A stretch of 35,606 nt of DNA from the NCBI RefSeq assembly GCF_014199525.1, contig NZ_JACHNU010000012.1, positions 1 to 35,606 of the forward strand, given 5' to 3'. This document shows positions 9,390 through 35,606 of this stretch, one piece after another. The stretch comes from Conexibacter arvalis (GTDB lineage: Bacteria > Actinomycetota > Thermoleophilia > Solirubrobacterales > Solirubrobacteraceae). The stretch's first letter is position 1, and each line of letters starts with the position of its first letter. The notes under the pieces are model-generated. The model was not told the DNA's origin. It did no database searches and saw only the letters and a program-made list of their open reading frames with translations. The position numbers and the translations under genes were made by a program.

Positions 9390-9393
<4 letters not shown>
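8719..9393 (+). CDS. pcaJ: 3-oxoadipate CoA-transferase subunit B
   Basis: The 224-residue beta subunit carries the catalytic glutamate that forms the glutamyl-CoA intermediate: Glu48 in [11 protein letters not shown]. Other family blocks are [16 protein letters not shown] (residues 23-38), [20 protein letters not shown] and [15 protein letters not shown]. It overlaps the upstream subunit by four bases (ATGA) and the downstream thiolase by four bases (ATGA), so the three proteins are probably made in fixed ratio. With PcaI it would form the heteromeric cytoplasmic enzyme of the beta-ketoadipate pathway. Confidence 0.9.
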
Positions 9394-10622
<1,229 letters not shown>

Positions 10623-10740
10623 GGGGCGGGCGCGGGCGCGGGCGAGCCGGCCGCGCCCCGCGCCCACAGCGCGCGCCGCGCGCCGCGCCCACAGCGCGCG
10701 CGGCGCCCCGCGCCGCCGCGCCCGCTTGCGACCGTCTGCG

Positions 10741-10793
10741 CGGACCTTTGTCATCCGATGGGTCGATGCGACCCATTCGATGACAGAGGTCCG
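10741..10793. repeat. Dispersed palindromic element, intergenic copy
   Basis: A near-perfect inverted repeat of 23-base arms (10741-10763 and 10771-10793, 20 of 23 paired) around the 7-base loop CGATGCG. The right half reads GATGACAGAGGTCC. The same half-site, GGACCTCTGTCATCC, occurs in the second copy at 25105-25170. It follows pcaF on the plus strand but has no T-tract, so it is more like a REP-type element than a simple terminator. Confidence 0.8.
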
Positions 10794-10834
10794 TGCGGAA
10801 GTGCGTCCCTGGCGCGATCTATGCTGGCGGCGCG

Positions 10835-11587
10835 ATGGCCGGCGACGGGCTCAGGTACGAGCTGATGCGGGCGCGGACGCGGGACGGCGGCGAGACGACC
10901 GTCTACCTCGTCCGCCATCCGCGCGCGACCACGCGGCTGCGGGTCCGCTGCTTCGAGCGGCCGACCCGGCTCGACCACTGGTGCGCGGAGCAGGGGAGGG
11001 CGGAGGCGATCGTCGCCGGCTTCTTCCTGCGCGACCCGCACCGGCCGCTCGGCGAGGTCGTCGTCGACGGCTCGCCCGTGCCGCATGAGCCAGTCGCGGC
11101 GCCATGGGGTCCGCTGAGGGCGTGCGTCCACGCCGACGGCGACGGGAGCGTGCGGCTGGCGGCGCGCCGGGAGCTGCCGGTCGATCCGGCCGGCGACCTC
11201 GTGCAAGCCGGCCCGCTGCTCGTCTGCGACGGCGCGTCGGTCGTCGACGGCGACGACCGCGAGGGCTTCTCGGCCGGCGCCGGCCAGTTCGACTCCGACA
11301 TCACCTCCGCCTGCCACCCGCGCTGCGCGCTCGGCGTCGCCGACGACGAGCTGCTCGCGCTCTGCTGCGACGGCCGCCGCTCCGGCGTCGACGTCGGCCT
11401 CGACCTCGCCGAGCTGGCCCGCGTGCTGATCGCCTGCGGCGCCCGCGACGCGATCAACCTCGACGGCGGCGGCTCCGCGACCCTCGTCCACCGCGGCCAC
11501 CTCCTCAACCGCCCCTACGCGGCCGAGAACCAGCCCGCCCCCGAATCCCGCCCGATCGCCACCGCCCTGCTGTTCGAGCCGGCGTAG
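10835..11587 (+). CDS. NAGPA-type phosphodiester glycosidase domain protein
   Basis: The 250-residue protein has the C-terminal signature of the phosphodiester glycosidase (NAGPA, formerly DUF2233) domain: ARDAINLDGGGSATLVHRG with its Asp-Gly-Gly-Gly core, preceded by CALGVADDELLALCCDG. The family includes the enzyme that uncovers mannose 6-phosphate and many bacterial proteins thought to act on cell-wall glycans. No signal peptide is visible, so either it acts in the cytoplasm or the start is misjudged. The ATG at 10835 was chosen over an ATG 42 bases upstream because the added residues have no coding character. Five cysteines lie in the C-terminal half. Confidence 0.8.
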   Translation: MAGDGLRYELMRARTRDGGETTVYLVRHPRATTRLRVRCFERPTRLDHWCAEQGRAEAIVAGFFLRDPHRPLGEVVVDGSPVPHEPVAAPWGPLRACVHADGDGSVRLAARRELPVDPAGDLVQAGPLLVCDGASVVDGDDREGFSAGAGQFDSDITSACHPRCALGVADDELLALCCDGRRSGVDVGLDLAELARVLIACGARDAINLDGGGSATLVHRGHLLNRPYAAENQPAPESRPIATALLFEPA

Positions 11588-11634: not shown

Positions 11635-11734
11635 GCGCGGCGCTCCGTCAGGCGGGTCGGCGGGCGGCGACGGCGGCGGCGGGTCGGGCGCGGCGCTCCG
11701 TCAGGCGGGCCGGCGGGCGGCGACGGCGGCGGCG
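11635..11734. repeat. 53-bp tandem duplication at the methyltransferase 3' end
   Basis: GCGCGGCGCTCCGTCAGGCG begins at 11635 and again at 11688, and the next ~27 bases also match with one substitution. The second copy contains the stop codon and last codons of the methyltransferase gene, so the first copy is a duplicate of the gene's 3' end beyond the stop. Confidence 0.85.
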
Positions 11735-12366
11735 CCCGGGGCGGCGACCTGCTCGACCTGGTCCCAGCCGTGCTCGCGCAGGGCGCGCTCGACGGTTTCC
11801 AGCGCGCGCGAGCTGCGGGGGCCGTCGCCGCCGGCCGGCGCGTCCCAGGCGAGCAGCAGGCGGCCGCCGGGGGCGAGCAGGCGACGCAGCAGGTCGAGCT
11901 CGGGGCTCACGTCGCGGGTCCAGAAGCAGTTGACGTTGACCGCGAACGCGGCGTCGTAGGAGCCGTCCGCGTCGTCGTGTCCGGCCAGCTCAGTCTCGTG
12001 GAGCCGCACACGCCCGTCGGCGACCGCGGCGGCGTTCCGTCTCTCCGACCGCGCGATCGCCGCCGCGGAGCGGTCGAGGCCGACGACCGCGCCGGCGCCG
12101 CTGGCCGCGCCGCTGCCGCTGGCCGCGCCGCTGCCGCTGGCCGCGCCGCTGCCGCTGGCCGCGCCGCTGCCGCTGGCCGCGGCGCCGCCGCTGCCGCCCG
12201 CCGCGCCGCTGCCGCTGCCGCCCGCAGCGCCGGCGCCGCCGTCCATCCGCGCGAGCACGAGCTCGAGCGCGACGCCGGTGCCGCAGCCGATCTCCAGCAC
12301 GCGCTCGCCCGGCTGAGGTGCGAGCAGGTCGACGGCAGCGGTGATGCGGGCGGGCGGTCTGGGCAT
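11701..12366 (-). CDS. SAM-dependent methyltransferase with a repeat insertion
   Basis: A class I methyltransferase of 221 residues. The SAM-binding loop is VLEIGCGTGVALELV (residues 23-37), the acidic strand-2 end is VVGLDRSAAAIARSE, and motifs further on (YDAAFAVNVNCFW, LAPGGRLLLAWD) fit. Between motif I and strand 2 sits about 50 residues of Gly-Ser-Ala repeat (43-92) encoded by an 18-base minisatellite, so the core enzyme would be only ~170 residues. The insertion lies at the loop after helix A, where it could be tolerated. The substrate is unknown. A 47-base palindrome lies 28 bases upstream of the start. Confidence 0.85.
   Translation of the reverse strand: MPRPPARITAAVDLLAPQPGERVLEIGCGTGVALELVLARMDGGAGAAGGSGSGAAGGSGGAAASGSGAASGSGAASGSGAASGSGAASGAGAVVGLDRSAAAIARSERRNAAAVADGRVRLHETELAGHDDADGSYDAAFAVNVNCFWTRDVSPELDLLRRLLAPGGRLLLAWDAPAGGDGPRSSRALETVERALREHGWDQVEQVAAPGAAAVAARRPA
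12091..12240. repeat. 18-bp minisatellite in the methyltransferase gene
   Basis: Units of 18 bases (plus strand CCGCTGCCGCTGGCCGCG) repeat four to five times almost exactly at about 12107-12182, followed by degenerate copies to 12240. They encode SGSGAA in frame. Confidence 0.85.
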
Positions 12367-12393
12367 CGCCGCACCCTACCGGTGGCCGGCCCG

Positions 12394-12440
12394 ATGACGT
12401 GCGAGTTTTGGGCGCTGAGCGACCACAACTCGCACCTCAT
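12394..12440. repeat. 47-bp near-perfect palindrome
   Basis: Arms of 23 bases (12394-12416 and 12418-12440) pair at 20 positions around one central base. The left arm starts ATGACGTGCGAGTT and the right arm ends AACTCGCACCTCAT. It lies between two minus-strand genes, just upstream of the methyltransferase, and has no T-tract. It does not share the half-site of the element at 10741 and 25105. Confidence 0.8.
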
Positions 12441-12464
12441 ATCCGTCGTGCCCCGAGGGATCTG

Positions 12465-23936: not shown

Positions 23937-25960
23937 CGCGGGCCGTCGATGCCGGCCTCGGCGAACGTGCCCATCTCGCGATGGAGCGCGCCGGCGGAGG
24001 CGATCACCGGCAGCGCGAGCAGCGCGCCCGACGCCTCCCCGAGACGCATGCGCAGGTCGAGCAGCGGCTCCAGCCCCAGCTCGGCGAGCACGAGCGCATG
24101 GCCCGGCTCGGCCGACCGATGGCTGGCGATCAGCGACTCCGCGAGACCGCCGTCGAGCCCGACCGCCGCAAGCGCCGCCGTCGAGACCGCGTAGCCGTCG
24201 AGGATCACCGGCAGCCGCCGCCGCGCCGCTTCGATCGCCGCCCCCGCGAGCGCCGCCAGCTCCAGTCCCCCGACCTCGCGCAGCGCGGTGCGGGCGGGGA
24301 GGGGAGCGGCATCGGCCGTCGCGCCCTCCGCGGTGGGGGCTGGTGTGCGGGCGGCCGCGGCGCCGTCTGCGGTGGGGGCTGGTGTGCGGGCGGCCGCGGC
24401 GCCGTCTGCGGTGGCGGGCGTCGCGGCGGAGGCGCGCGCTCGTGCCAGCGCGGCGTCGACGACGGCGCGCTTGCGGTCGAGGCCGGCGGCGTCGAGGCCG
24501 GTGCCGCGGCCGACCGTGCGCTCGGCGCCGACGCCGAGCAGGGCGCCGGCGAGGGCGGCGGTGGTCGCGGTGTTGCCGATCCCGATCTCGCCGAGCGCGA
24601 GGCAGTCGGCGCCGCGCTCGGCCAGCTCGCCGGCCAGCGCCGCGCCGAGCGCCAGCGCGGCGTCGAGCCGATCGTCGGTCAGCGCCGGCTCGGCGGTCAT
24701 GTCGGCGGTTCCCGGCGCCAGCTTCGCGGCGCGCACGCCGGGCGGCGTCTCCGCGACCAGGCCGACGTCGGCGACCAGCAGCTCGTGGCCGCCGTGGCGG
24801 GCGAGCACGCCGACCGCGCTCTGGCCGCGCGCCGCCGCGCCGGCGACCTGCGCCGAGACCCGCGCGTCGAAGAGGCTCGTGCCGTGGACGACGTGGCCGT
24901 GGTCGGCCGCGAGCACGAGCACCCCGGCCCTTGGCGCCGCCGGCGGCGCCGCGCCCGTGATCGACGCCCACCGCTCGATCAGCGCCTCCAGCGCCCCGAG
25001 CGACCCGGCCGGCTTCGCGAGCCGGTCGGAGCGGTCGCGCGCCGCGATCGCCGCCTCGCGGTCCGGCGGCGCGGCGCGCGGCCGGACCGCCGCCTCTCTG
25101 CCGGCCGGGGCGGGACCTCTGTCATCCGGTGCACGCACAGCCGGCATTGGATGACAGAGGTCCGCCCCGGAGGCGTCCGCCGGGCGGCCGGCGGGGTCCG
25201 CGGCGGCCCGTCGCGGCGCGGCGACGGCGTGCTCGGCCGGCCAGCGCTCGTCGATCACGACGTCGGCGAGCGGCATGCGGGACGACCAGCCGGCGGCCTC
25301 CAGGCCCGGGCGGACCGGGCGCTCGTCGGGCCAGCCGACGCACAGCCACGCCATCGGCTCGACGCGCGCCGGGATGCCCAGCAGCGTGCGCAGGTCGTCG
25401 GGGCGGTAGAAGCTGACCCAGCCGACGCCGAGGCCCTCGGCGCGCGCCGCGAGCCACAGGTTCTCGATCGCGCAGGCGGCGCTGTAGAGGTCGGTCTCGG
25501 GGATCGTGCCGCGGCCGAGGATCTCCTCGTCGGGGTCGCCGTGGTCGCAGCAGACGACGACGCCGAGCGGCGCCTCGACGATCCCCTCGATCTTCTGGTC
25601 GAGGAAGTGCGCGGCGCGCTCGCTGAACTTGGCCGACTGACGGATCCGCTCCCGCTGGGCCAAGCGCCGCAGCGCCAGCTTCGTCTCCAGCGAGCGCACG
25701 ACGATCAGCCGCCACGGCTGCATCAGCCCGACCGACGGCGCCTGGTGCGCGGCCGCGAGGATCCGCTCGAGCACGTCGTCGGGCACGGGGTCGGGGCGGA
25801 AGCGGCGGATGTCGCGCCGCTCGGCGATCGCGCGGTAGACCGCGTCGCGCGCCTCGTCGGGGAAGCGCCAGCCGCGCGGATCGGCGGCGCGCTCGGCGGC
25901 GCGGGAGGGATCGAAGCCCGCCGGGGTCGCCGGGCGCGGGGGTCGCAGGTCTCCGCTCAC
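23933..25960 (-). CDS. bluB-cobT: Fused BluB-CobT: lower-ligand synthase and phosphoribosyltransferase
   Basis: A 675-residue fusion. Residues ~1-240 are BluB, the flavin-destructase that makes 5,6-dimethylbenzimidazole: ERRDIRRFRPDPVPDDVLER, HQAPSVGLMQPWRLIVV and DLYSAACAIENLWLAARAEG are specific. A linker of about 70 residues contains a palindromic element in frame. Residues ~315-675 are CobT, which transfers phosphoribose from nicotinate mononucleotide: LAKPAGSLG, GEIGIGNTATTAALAGALLG, GRGTGLDAAGLDRK, VILDGYAVSTAAL and RLGEASGALLALPV, with the catalytic glutamate about residue 642. An in-frame 39-base minisatellite interrupts CobT. A TTG at 25969 is an alternative start; neither has a clear ribosome-binding site. 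It is divergent from the riboswitch operon. Confidence 0.9.
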   Translation of the reverse strand: MSGDLRPPRPATPAGFDPSRAAERAADPRGWRFPDEARDAVYRAIAERRDIRRFRPDPVPDDVLERILAAAHQAPSVGLMQPWRLIVVRSLETKLALRRLAQRERIRQSAKFSERAAHFLDQKIEGIVEAPLGVVVCCDHGDPDEEILGRGTIPETDLYSAACAIENLWLAARAEGLGVGWVSFYRPDDLRTLLGIPARVEPMAWLCVGWPDERPVRPGLEAAGWSSRMPLADVVIDERWPAEHAVAAPRRAAADPAGRPADASGADLCHPMPAVRAPDDRGPAPAGREAAVRPRAAPPDREAAIAARDRSDRLAKPAGSLGALEALIERWASITGAAPPAAPRAGVLVLAADHGHVVHGTSLFDARVSAQVAGAAARGQSAVGVLARHGGHELLVADVGLVAETPPGVRAAKLAPGTADMTAEPALTDDRLDAALALGAALAGELAERGADCLALGEIGIGNTATTAALAGALLGVGAERTVGRGTGLDAAGLDRKRAVVDAALARARASAATPATADGAAAARTPAPTADGAAAARTPAPTAEGATADAAPLPARTALREVGGLELAALAGAAIEAARRRLPVILDGYAVSTAALAAVGLDGGLAESLIASHRSAEPGHALVLAELGLEPLLDLRMRLGEASGALLALPVIASAGALHREMGTFAEAGIDGPR
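24330..24407. repeat. 39-bp minisatellite in the CobT domain
   Basis: Two exact 39-base copies (24330-24368 and 24369-24407) and the start of a third, encoding TADGAAAARTPAP in frame in a surface loop of CobT. Confidence 0.9.
25105..25170. repeat. Dispersed palindromic element, copy inside bluB-cobT
   Basis: Arms at 25105-25127 and 25149-25170 pair over 22 bases with one bulge; the loop is 21 bases. The half-site GGACCTCTGTCATCC is shared with the intergenic copy at 10741-10793. It lies in the interdomain linker and is read in frame as about residues 264-286 (GADLCHPMPAV part), without a stop. Confidence 0.85.
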
Positions 25961-26109: not shown

Positions 26110-26268
26110 GCCGGTACGATGGCCGCCGTCAGCGTGGCGGTGCGAGGAACCCGGTGAGACTCCGGGACGGTCGCGCCACTGTGTCCGGCTCCCCAGCCGG
26201 AAGTCAGGAACTCCACCGCCGCGACTCCTTCCACGATCGGGACGCTGGATCCCGAGGAGGTCCGCCGC
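26110..26268 (+). ncRNA. Cobalamin riboswitch
   Basis: The core GGAACCCGGTGAGACTCCGG (26146-26165) followed by GACGGTCGCGCCACTGT and, downstream, AGTCAGGAACTCC (the B12 box, 26202-26214) matches the adenosylcobalamin riboswitch. A candidate expression platform follows: TCGGGA (26237-26242) pairs with TCCCGA (26250-26255), and GACTCC (26223-26228) can pair with GGAGGTC to bury the AGGAGG ribosome-binding site at 26255-26260. Ligand binding would then block translation of the leader ORF. The aptamer is well supported; the platform is inferred. Confidence 0.93.
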
Positions 26269-33977: not shown

Positions 33978-35460
33978 GCGGCGCTGCCGCCTTCCCGCTC
34001 TCCGCGATCGTCGGGCAGGAGGCGCTGGTCGAGGCGCTGCTGGTCAACGCCGTCGCGCCCGACGTCGGCGGCGTGCTCGTCCGGGGCGAGCGCGGGACGG
34101 CGAAGTCGACGGCGGTGCGGGCGCTTGCGCCGCTGCTTCCGCCGGTCGCGGCCGCGGCCGGCCAGCCGTGGTGCTTCGGGCCGGGCGAGGTGGGGCCCGA
34201 CGGGATCGTGCCGGCCGACGCCGCGGTCGTCGAGCGGCCGGCACCGCTCGTCGAGCTGCCGCTCGGCGCGACGCTCGATCGGCTCGTCGGCGCGCTCGAC
34301 CTCGGCCGCGCGCTCGCCGGCGAGCAGGCGTTCGAGGCCGGCCTGCTCGCCCGCGCGCATCGGGGAATCCTGTACGTCGACGAGGTCAACCTGCTGCCCG
34401 ACCACCTCGTCGACGCGCTGCTCGACGCGGCCGCCTCGGGCGTGGCGCGGGTCGAGCGCGAGGCGGTCTCCGTCTCGCACGCGGCGCGGTTCCTGCTCGT
34501 CGGGACGATGAACGTCGAGGAGGGCGAGCTGCGGCCGCAGCTGCTCGACCGCTTCGGACTGGGCGTCGAGGTGCGCGCGCCGCGCGACCGTGCCGTGCGT
34601 GCCGAGATCGTGCGGCGCCGGCTGGCGTTCGAGCGCGACCCGGCGGGCTTCGCGGCACGGTTCGCGGGGGAGGAGGCCGCGCTGGCCGAGCGAATCGCAC
34701 GCGCCCGCGTCGCGCTGCCGGCCGTCCGCCTGCCCGAGCGGGAGCTGCTCCGCATCACCGGCGCCTGCGCCGAGCTGGAGATCGACGGCGTCCGCGGCGA
34801 CATCGTCTGCGCCCGGGCCGCCGCCGCGCTGGCGGCGCTCGACGGAAGCGATTCCGTCGACGAGTCCCACGTCCGCCGGGCCGCCGAGCTCGCGCTCGCC
34901 CACCGGCGCCATCGGGATCCGCTCGCCGCCGGCGGGTCGTCGGTGAGCGACGACCTGCAGCGCGCGCTCGACGGCGATCCGGACGGCCAGCCGCCGTCCG
35001 GCGGACCGGCCGGCGGTGGCGGCTCGCCGGACGAGTCGCCCGGCGACGGGGGTGCGGCCGACGGACGGTCGAGCGCGCCGTCGGGTGCGGGCGGTTCCGC
35101 GTCCGCTCACGGTGGTGCCGGCGCTGGAGGTGCCGGCGGCACTGGTGCCGCCGACGGCGCCGGGGGTGGCGATGGCGACGATGCCGCCGGGGCCGCTGCC
35201 GCCGCTCAGTCCGCCACCTCCGCGCGGTTCTCGCCGACCGCCCGCGCCGTCGAACGGCGCGACCCGCCGGCGCCGGCACGGCTTCCGGCGGCGGCGCTGA
35301 CGCTCGACGGCCGCGGCTCGGGGCCGCCCGGCCGCCGGGCGCGAGGCGCAGGTCCGGGCCTCGGCGCGATCGACAGCCGCCCGGCCGGCCCGGACGCCGC
35401 GGACCTCGCCGTCGTCGCCACCCTCCGCGCGCGGCTGCTTACCGGCGCCCAGGGGAGGAG
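33974..35460 (+). CDS. ChlI/ChlD-type chelatase ATPase, truncated by contig end
   Basis: A GTG start overlapping cobN's stop opens an AAA+ ATPase of the magnesium/cobalt chelatase family. Walker A is GERGTAKST (residues 38-46, Lys44), Walker B is [11 protein letters not shown] (Asp136, Glu137), and [22 protein letters not shown] gives the sensor and arginine-finger region. [18 protein letters not shown] follows, then a long Gly/Ser/Asp linker (about residues 324-440) and [15 protein letters not shown], a segment that normally precedes the von Willebrand (ChlD) domain. The rest is missing: the sequence becomes homopolymer runs near 35460. The intact protein is likely an I-D fusion that energises CobN. 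Confidence 0.88.
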
Positions 35461-35606
35461 TGGGGGGGGGGGGGGGGGGTGGGACACCCCCCCCCCCCCC
35501 CCCCCCCCCCCCCCGCCCGGGGGGGGGGGGGGGGGCGCCCCCCCCGCCCCCCCCCCCCCCCCCCGGCCGCCCCCCCCCCCCGGGGGGGGGGCGCCCCCCG
35601 CGCCCG
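35461..35606. other. Homopolymer G/C run at contig end (artefact)
   Basis: The last ~145 bases are runs of G or C of up to ~40 bases with only a few A/T. This is unlike coding or intergenic DNA in the rest of the window, whose GC-rich stretches are mixed repeats. It fits poly-G sequencing error propagated into an assembly, and it cuts off the chelatase gene. Nothing in it should be annotated. Confidence 0.9.

Follow-up and report, generated by a model that had tools for sequence, protein, structure and literature searches.

Repetitive extragenic palindromes (REPs), as the main text of a survey describes them, are dispersed palindromes that occur as several families per genome, some of them species-specific, and that lie mostly downstream of open reading frames, between unidirectional or convergent genes, with some copies intragenic (PMC3733652). 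They measure 20-40 bp; the GTAG type goes with a RAYT, the CGTC type, with stems of 8-9 bp, has no known dedicated transposase, and in two Xanthomonas species the REPs found near the same position in recB differ (PMC3733652). To judge from the descriptions cited, tagged REPs are found mainly in Proteobacteria and palindromes read in frame within proteins are best known in Rickettsia (PMC3733652, PMC10969869), whose Rickettsia palindromic elements (RPEs) are about 150 bp long (PMC10969869), and stem-loops repeated genome-wide have been grouped into sequence families in a set of 40 genomes (PMC1590033, PMC2267715). The main text of the REP survey does not mention Conexibacter or Actinobacteria (PMC3733652), and no published account of such hairpins in Conexibacter or Thermoleophilia, or of REPs in Actinobacteria, was among the matches listed; prevalent false-CRISPR repeats in Conexibacter woesei were reported as unexplained, with composition bias suggested (PMC5294841). 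Here we consider palindromes in a 35,606-nt stretch of Conexibacter arvalis (assembly GCF_014199525.1, contig NZ_JACHNU010000012.1, positions 1 to 35,606), hereafter the window, one of which is read in frame inside a gene for a BluB-CobT fusion protein. They are probably, with a likelihood that we put at roughly three in four, copies of a non-autonomous, REP- or RPE-like repetitive mobile hairpin, represented in each genome by several families, that has spread within the genus Conexibacter.

Like REPs, the Conexibacter hairpins are dispersed, belong to several families, lie mostly downstream of coding regions and are sometimes intragenic. They differ from REPs in their length of 49 bp and 22 pairing positions per arm, in lacking an unpaired GTAG or CGTC tag, in having flanks without a conserved tetranucleotide, and in that no RAYT was detected in the genus. 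Placement, intragenic copies, a transposase-less class and differing sequences at the same site are, on the survey's account, not new in kind (PMC3733652). With RPEs, compared by description only, the hairpins share their many families and in-frame reading in unrelated proteins, but they are 49-51 bp long, encode about 17 residues and belong to a GC-rich free-living actinomycete. They are genome-wide like the published stem-loop families, but their length hardly varies from family to family or from species to species. Their terminal inverted repeats recall miniature inverted-repeat transposable elements (MITEs), but no consistent target duplication accompanies them. REPINs are non-autonomous and combine conserved outer parts with a variable interior; here, by contrast, the interior is itself palindromic, the length is nearly fixed and no RAYT was detected. 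The initial annotation had proposed a REP- or MITE-like element, which holds in so far as the copies are dispersed, mostly intergenic, absent at some orthologous sites and in places inside genes; strict membership of either class does not hold, given the missing tag, RAYT and consistent target duplication.

The same annotation had noticed a half-site, GGACCTCTGTCATCC, in two inverted repeats of the window, and both were recovered by sequence matching and as inverted-repeat arms. The half-site is exact on both arms of the copy within BluB-CobT and has one mismatch on each arm of the intergenic copy (Table 1); at up to three mismatches the window holds four matches against 0.94 expected, a number reached in 0 of 100 shuffles. 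Arms at 10735-10765 and 10769-10799, and at 25108-25132 and 25144-25168, form inverted repeats that are each 84% complementary. The intragenic repeat had been drawn as 25105-25170; the inverted repeats are real, yet the conserved unit is a 49-bp core in both copies, and the outer complementarity (25105-25113 with 25162-25170) is shifted one base from the core register and looks like a local feature. Two copies had been named and both are present, but a third palindrome of the window, of a sister family (F2), was missed, and the genome holds many more.

In the source genome (G000; 5,200,601 bases, 18 contigs) the sequence GGACCTNTGTCATC has 37 matches over both strands, and the full 51-nt pattern of this first family (F1) occurs at 30 places, each with 0-2 mismatches where three were allowed, against none for a backwards-read control. 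Two of the 30 lie in the window; a half-site found only twice in the genome had been named as a sign against a mobile origin, and this is clearly not the situation. When the arm GACCTNTGTCATCC was searched without a spacing condition (at most one mismatch), 58 of its 61 matches fell within the 30 places, one in a diverged 52-nt copy (C1:908513) and two on contig C8, two being also the number given by the backwards control. No F1 copy was found at up to three mismatches in 60 relatives, six congeners included, nor any stretch in a wider genome-contig collection from which own-genome records were possibly excluded, and the patterns of three families had no match in viral contigs. As a separate observation, an F1 copy and the diverged 52-nt copy flank a small operon encoding a MazE-like antitoxin together with a PIN-domain protein (L056 3001-3856; G000 C1:907709-908564), an arrangement that looks like a toxin-antitoxin cassette set between two hairpins.

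Within F1 the outer arm GACCTNTGTCATC is almost invariant, apart from a free base at position 7 that is Watson-Crick paired in 15 of the 30 copies. The inner stem varies in sequence among copies and nonetheless keeps its pairing: Watson-Crick pairing joins positions 18/34 in 28 of the 30 copies and positions 19/33 and 20/32 in all 30, drawn from two to three main pair types, and 7.6 of 10 inner positions pair with the copy's own other arm as against 5.4 of 10 with the arm of another copy.

F1 is one family among several. A scan for odd-centred 51-nt palindromes, covering 1.24 Mb of the source genome and 0.8 Mb of the congener G003 (6,359,369 bases, one contig), yielded further dispersed families with other arms in both. 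Since coding palindromes of the GTCGACGAC type dominate the weak matches, families were accepted only if repeated in the same register, and palindromes arising by chance or codon bias were set aside as an explanation. A covariance model, R1, was built from 25 gap-free aligned elements (16 own, 9 from G003), among them the F2 palindrome of the window. R1 matched all seven genomes of the genus, with 123 strand-matches in G000, 95-97 in G003 and 13, 28, 50, 13 and 11 in G001, G002, G004, G005 and G006; these counts are lower bounds and the E-values rough, 144-150 candidates having been scored per genome. Overall, 19 of 41 genomes had matches and 22 had none. Outside the genus, 12 genomes gave 1-21 strand-matches, of which those at 1-3 per genome may be chance, and 34 loci from relatives gave none. 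A similarly built 51-nt hairpin was seen in another genus of the family (L268, G014, 1501-1551), in a genome with 19 strand-matches that also has Y1_Tnp matches. The source genome thus holds about 90 known places (30 F1 copies, 51 non-F1 copies that were studied, 8 model places that were not fetched, and the 52-nt copy), and G003 about 65, of which 60 come from R1 and 5 from the local scan.

One architecture is common to nearly all these copies: two arms of 22 nt that pair, separated by a loop of 5 nt, 49 bp in all, usually with termini paired as GA..TC. We took the unit as 49 bp because in all three sets of copies (51 non-F1 own, 30 F1 and 62 from G003) pairing falls off beyond base 24, counted from the centre: from 0.86, 1.00 and 0.85 at base 24 to 0.51, 0.53 and 0.37 at base 25, with similar values further out; R1 includes pairs to base 24 and not 25, which partly favours this edge in copies found with it, whereas the F1 set was found without R1. 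The profile used 62 of the 65 G003 places, three with a shifted register being left out, as were the 8 unfetched own places and the 52-nt copy, and pair counts on the 25-element alignment are partly circular, as its elements were picked for pairing. Pairing also dips inside the unit (0.50 at base 19 in F1, for example), the two bases beside the centre are frequently unpaired outside F1, and flank pairing beyond the core showed no excess over shuffled partners. A length of 51 nt is shared by 55 of the 60 G003 model places, with four at 50 and one at 52; the 51-nt pattern and palindrome searches preset their length, so the constancy of length rests on these places and on the spacing-free F1 arm search. 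Outer arms and inner stems occur in differing combinations, the outer arm GAACTCCGGTCGT for example with two unlike inner stems, a modularity seen by inspection rather than statistics, single-linkage clusters merging the families.

The copies favour gene 3' ends. They are also mainly intergenic, a point that the initial annotation had raised for checking: 22 of 146 were called inside genes, one more had a single neighbour, and the 123 classifiable intergenic copies comprise 54 with convergent, 50 with co-oriented and 19 with divergent neighbours. Across all junctions of two genomes, convergent pairs make up 14.9% and 15.5% and divergent pairs 15.3% and 15.1%. Median distances in three sets were 25, 24 and 9 nt to a gene 3' end, as against 67, 65.5 and 80 nt to a 5' end. 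The gene calls came from a simple codon model trained on seven genes of the window, so that these context classes carry errors.

Most elements offer, on each strand, two reading frames out of three that are free of stops. The palindrome in BluB-CobT is open in the frame of the gene and encodes ADLCHPMPAVRAPDDRGP, including a Cys, between the two domains, as had been noted from the sequence at the outset. The further suggestion that the linker had been co-opted is not borne out: nothing indicates a function, and in 27 aligned relatives (three of them Conexibacter, drawn from 79 loci) the linkers lack these 17 residues and have very different lengths. AlphaFold2, run with 17 sequences, gave a predicted local distance difference test score below 50 at residues 249-295, among other low stretches, for a mean of 72.4. 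On the simple reading, the copy would be tolerated padding in a linker that is predicted to be disordered. The hairpin might, as the annotation also suggested, affect the bluB-cobT mRNA, though the copies bear no mark of single-strand selection.

Other proteins present a similar picture. Pfam scans covered 20 of the 22 in-gene calls (all except L235 and L299). Among the first ten, selected because their gene calls were strong, no protein has its element within a matched domain; six of the ten form three orthologue pairs of 71-77% identity, namely, by Pfam content, an AccD-AccA fusion, a thiamine pyrophosphate enzyme and an ABC transporter present in both species, and the others are PTS EIIA-HPr-EI, an SbcC-like protein with a long region between its ATPase ends, a non-ribosomal peptide synthetase and BluB-CobT. 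The second ten include a RecQ-like helicase, whose element precedes the helicase domain, and an MFS protein; the rest are less clear (L300 has no family, and L296, L292, L286, L278 and L325 are partial), and we rely on the first ten.

Comparison of sites between C. arvalis and G003 showed that copies are gained or lost, that some sites are shared and that families are homogeneous within a species. A site was comparable when both flanks could be aligned. Among own elements compared with arbitrarily chosen G003 blocks, two of five sites were occupied in both species (L053/L245, L328/L243) and three were empty in G003 (L046, L228, L317); in the reverse comparison, with arbitrarily chosen own blocks, one of two was occupied (L283/L232) and one empty (L196). 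Pooled, three of seven sites carried different sequences in the two species and four were empty in one; a further three occupied pairs and one empty site, in regions that had been retrieved on account of an element, are outside this count. Flanks at orthologous sites without an element are 72-90% alike. Mean identity in the six pairs occupied in both species was 27.2/51, and random partners reached 22.4 (P 0.009, or 0.046 with permutation restricted to the six pairs); two of these pairs showed no likeness above random. The nearest copy was on average 45.3/51 identical within the own genome as against 31.6/51 in G003. Both independent reinsertion at preferred sites and the overwriting of old copies by related ones fit these data.

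Several results weigh against a mobile hairpin. Y1_Tnp (PF01797), the RAYT domain, had no match in any of the seven genus genomes, although a control search matched 5 of 14 known genomes; across 41 genomes it was found in 8, comprising 3 of 19 with R1 matches and 5 of 22 without. Absent from the genus, RAYT was rejected as the mobiliser, and neither this search nor that for F1 half-sites identified a transposase or partner element. Direct repeats of 2-6 bp, sought at six boundaries in 143 copies, were lacking in most; such excesses as exist (for example 34 vs 24.7 at 2 bp, and at 4 bp 9 vs 3.8 or 6 vs 2.0) are scattered over different boundaries, with no constant position or length, and a consistent target duplication was rejected. 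No exact insertion junction was resolved, and the intergenic DNA around element-free sites also differs. Some copies must be old, or sites reused, because shared occupancy at 3/7 hardly fits independent random insertion. The divergent share of intergenic copies equals that of all junctions. Finally, the 60 model places of G003 number 4, 11, 18 and 27 in successive quarters from the contig start to the opposite point (Kolmogorov-Smirnov P 0.0003); the start encodes a DnaA-like protein followed by DnaN- and RecF-like proteins, as read from translations, and a density rising away from dnaA could point to a chromosomal function.

On the reading that we favour, copies would move, or be copied, as a DNA hairpin by a trans-acting enzyme other than a detectable Y1/RAYT; selection would then spare those at gene 3' ends or, if stop-free and in frame, in flexible linkers, and remove the others, and turnover, or conversion by related copies, would keep families uniform within species and different between them. 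A more specific version, possible but in our view rather doubtful, is that these RAYT-independent hairpins change their arms in step, through arm-to-arm copying or conversion between dispersed copies, so that a site would keep its hairpin across species while the sequence is replaced by the species' current family, outer and inner modules would be exchanged, and multidomain proteins would repeatedly have taken in hairpins at the same linker.

Alternatively, selection on the RNA fold might maintain the hairpins as elements that act at the 3' ends of mRNAs, be it as terminators, stabilisers or processing sites. The excess between convergent genes, the medians of 9-25 nt to gene 3' ends, the pairs changed on both sides and the occupied orthologous sites would all be expected of such elements. 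Against this, copies also lie within genes and between divergent genes (19/123), and the window elements have no Rfam match, the window giving just a tRNA and an AdoCbl riboswitch. The flanks are GC-rich and hold no T run, which by flank composition is not what an intrinsic terminator would show. Mismatches by strand (G-U vs A-C), computed without direction of transcription, were not concordant in any of three sets (minority class 25 vs 20.5, 11 vs 12.1 and 24 vs 24.3 expected), so that there is no sign of one strand being selected as RNA, and we consider this explanation unlikely. Still less probable are double-stranded binding sites for chromosomal or regulatory proteins, such as organising sites enriched at the terminus: these would account for the gradient from dnaA and for the near-invariant F1 outer arms with their free position 7, but many unlike arms coexist in one genome, the variable interior pairs all the same, copies lie inside coding regions and F1 is missing in six congeners. 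Short, multicopy inverted repeats are equally what a classical MITE offers, with the arms as the ends of a parental DDE insertion sequence. Yet 58 of 61 F1 half-sites lie in the 30 palindromes, so that no parent element is obvious, the entire unit is palindromic with a variable interior, and no consistent target duplication was seen; this origin seems very improbable.

The features of the window are collected in Table 1. A minus-strand reading frame (11701-12366) starts 25 nt downstream of the F2 palindrome, and DNA relatives of the thiolase-like gene are 84% identical in G003 and 86% in G005. The genes that come after bluB-cobT have the AdoCbl riboswitch (26133-26223, plus strand) upstream of them. 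Near the contig end, at 35457-35567, G and C occur in long runs, possibly an assembly artefact.

Table 1. Palindromes and neighbouring genes in the 35,606-nt window; palindromes have no strand.
Feature	Position	Strand	Remarks
F1 palindrome in the BluB-CobT reading frame	25113..25163 (core 25114-25162)		residues 269-286
F1 palindrome between two same-direction genes	10742..10792 (core 10743-10791)		
F2 palindrome, sister family, same length, loop CTGAG, other arms	12392..12442		R1, 40.8 bits
Thiolase-like gene, left of the intergenic F1 copy	9390..10622	+	name by inspection only
Gene right of the intergenic F1 copy	10835..11587	+	gap 42 nt
BluB-CobT fusion gene, 678 aa	23933..25969	-	Pfam Nitroreductase residues 48-213; DBI_PRT from 301

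In summary, a genus-wide superfamily of hairpins in a GC-rich free-living actinomycete, with no detectable RAYT and with insertion sites in proteins shared by two species, offers a new system for studying the spread of transposase-less palindromes. The hairpins found in proteins amount to a natural experiment on the growth of interdomain linkers, and the system is testable in a cultured soil species, Conexibacter woesei.
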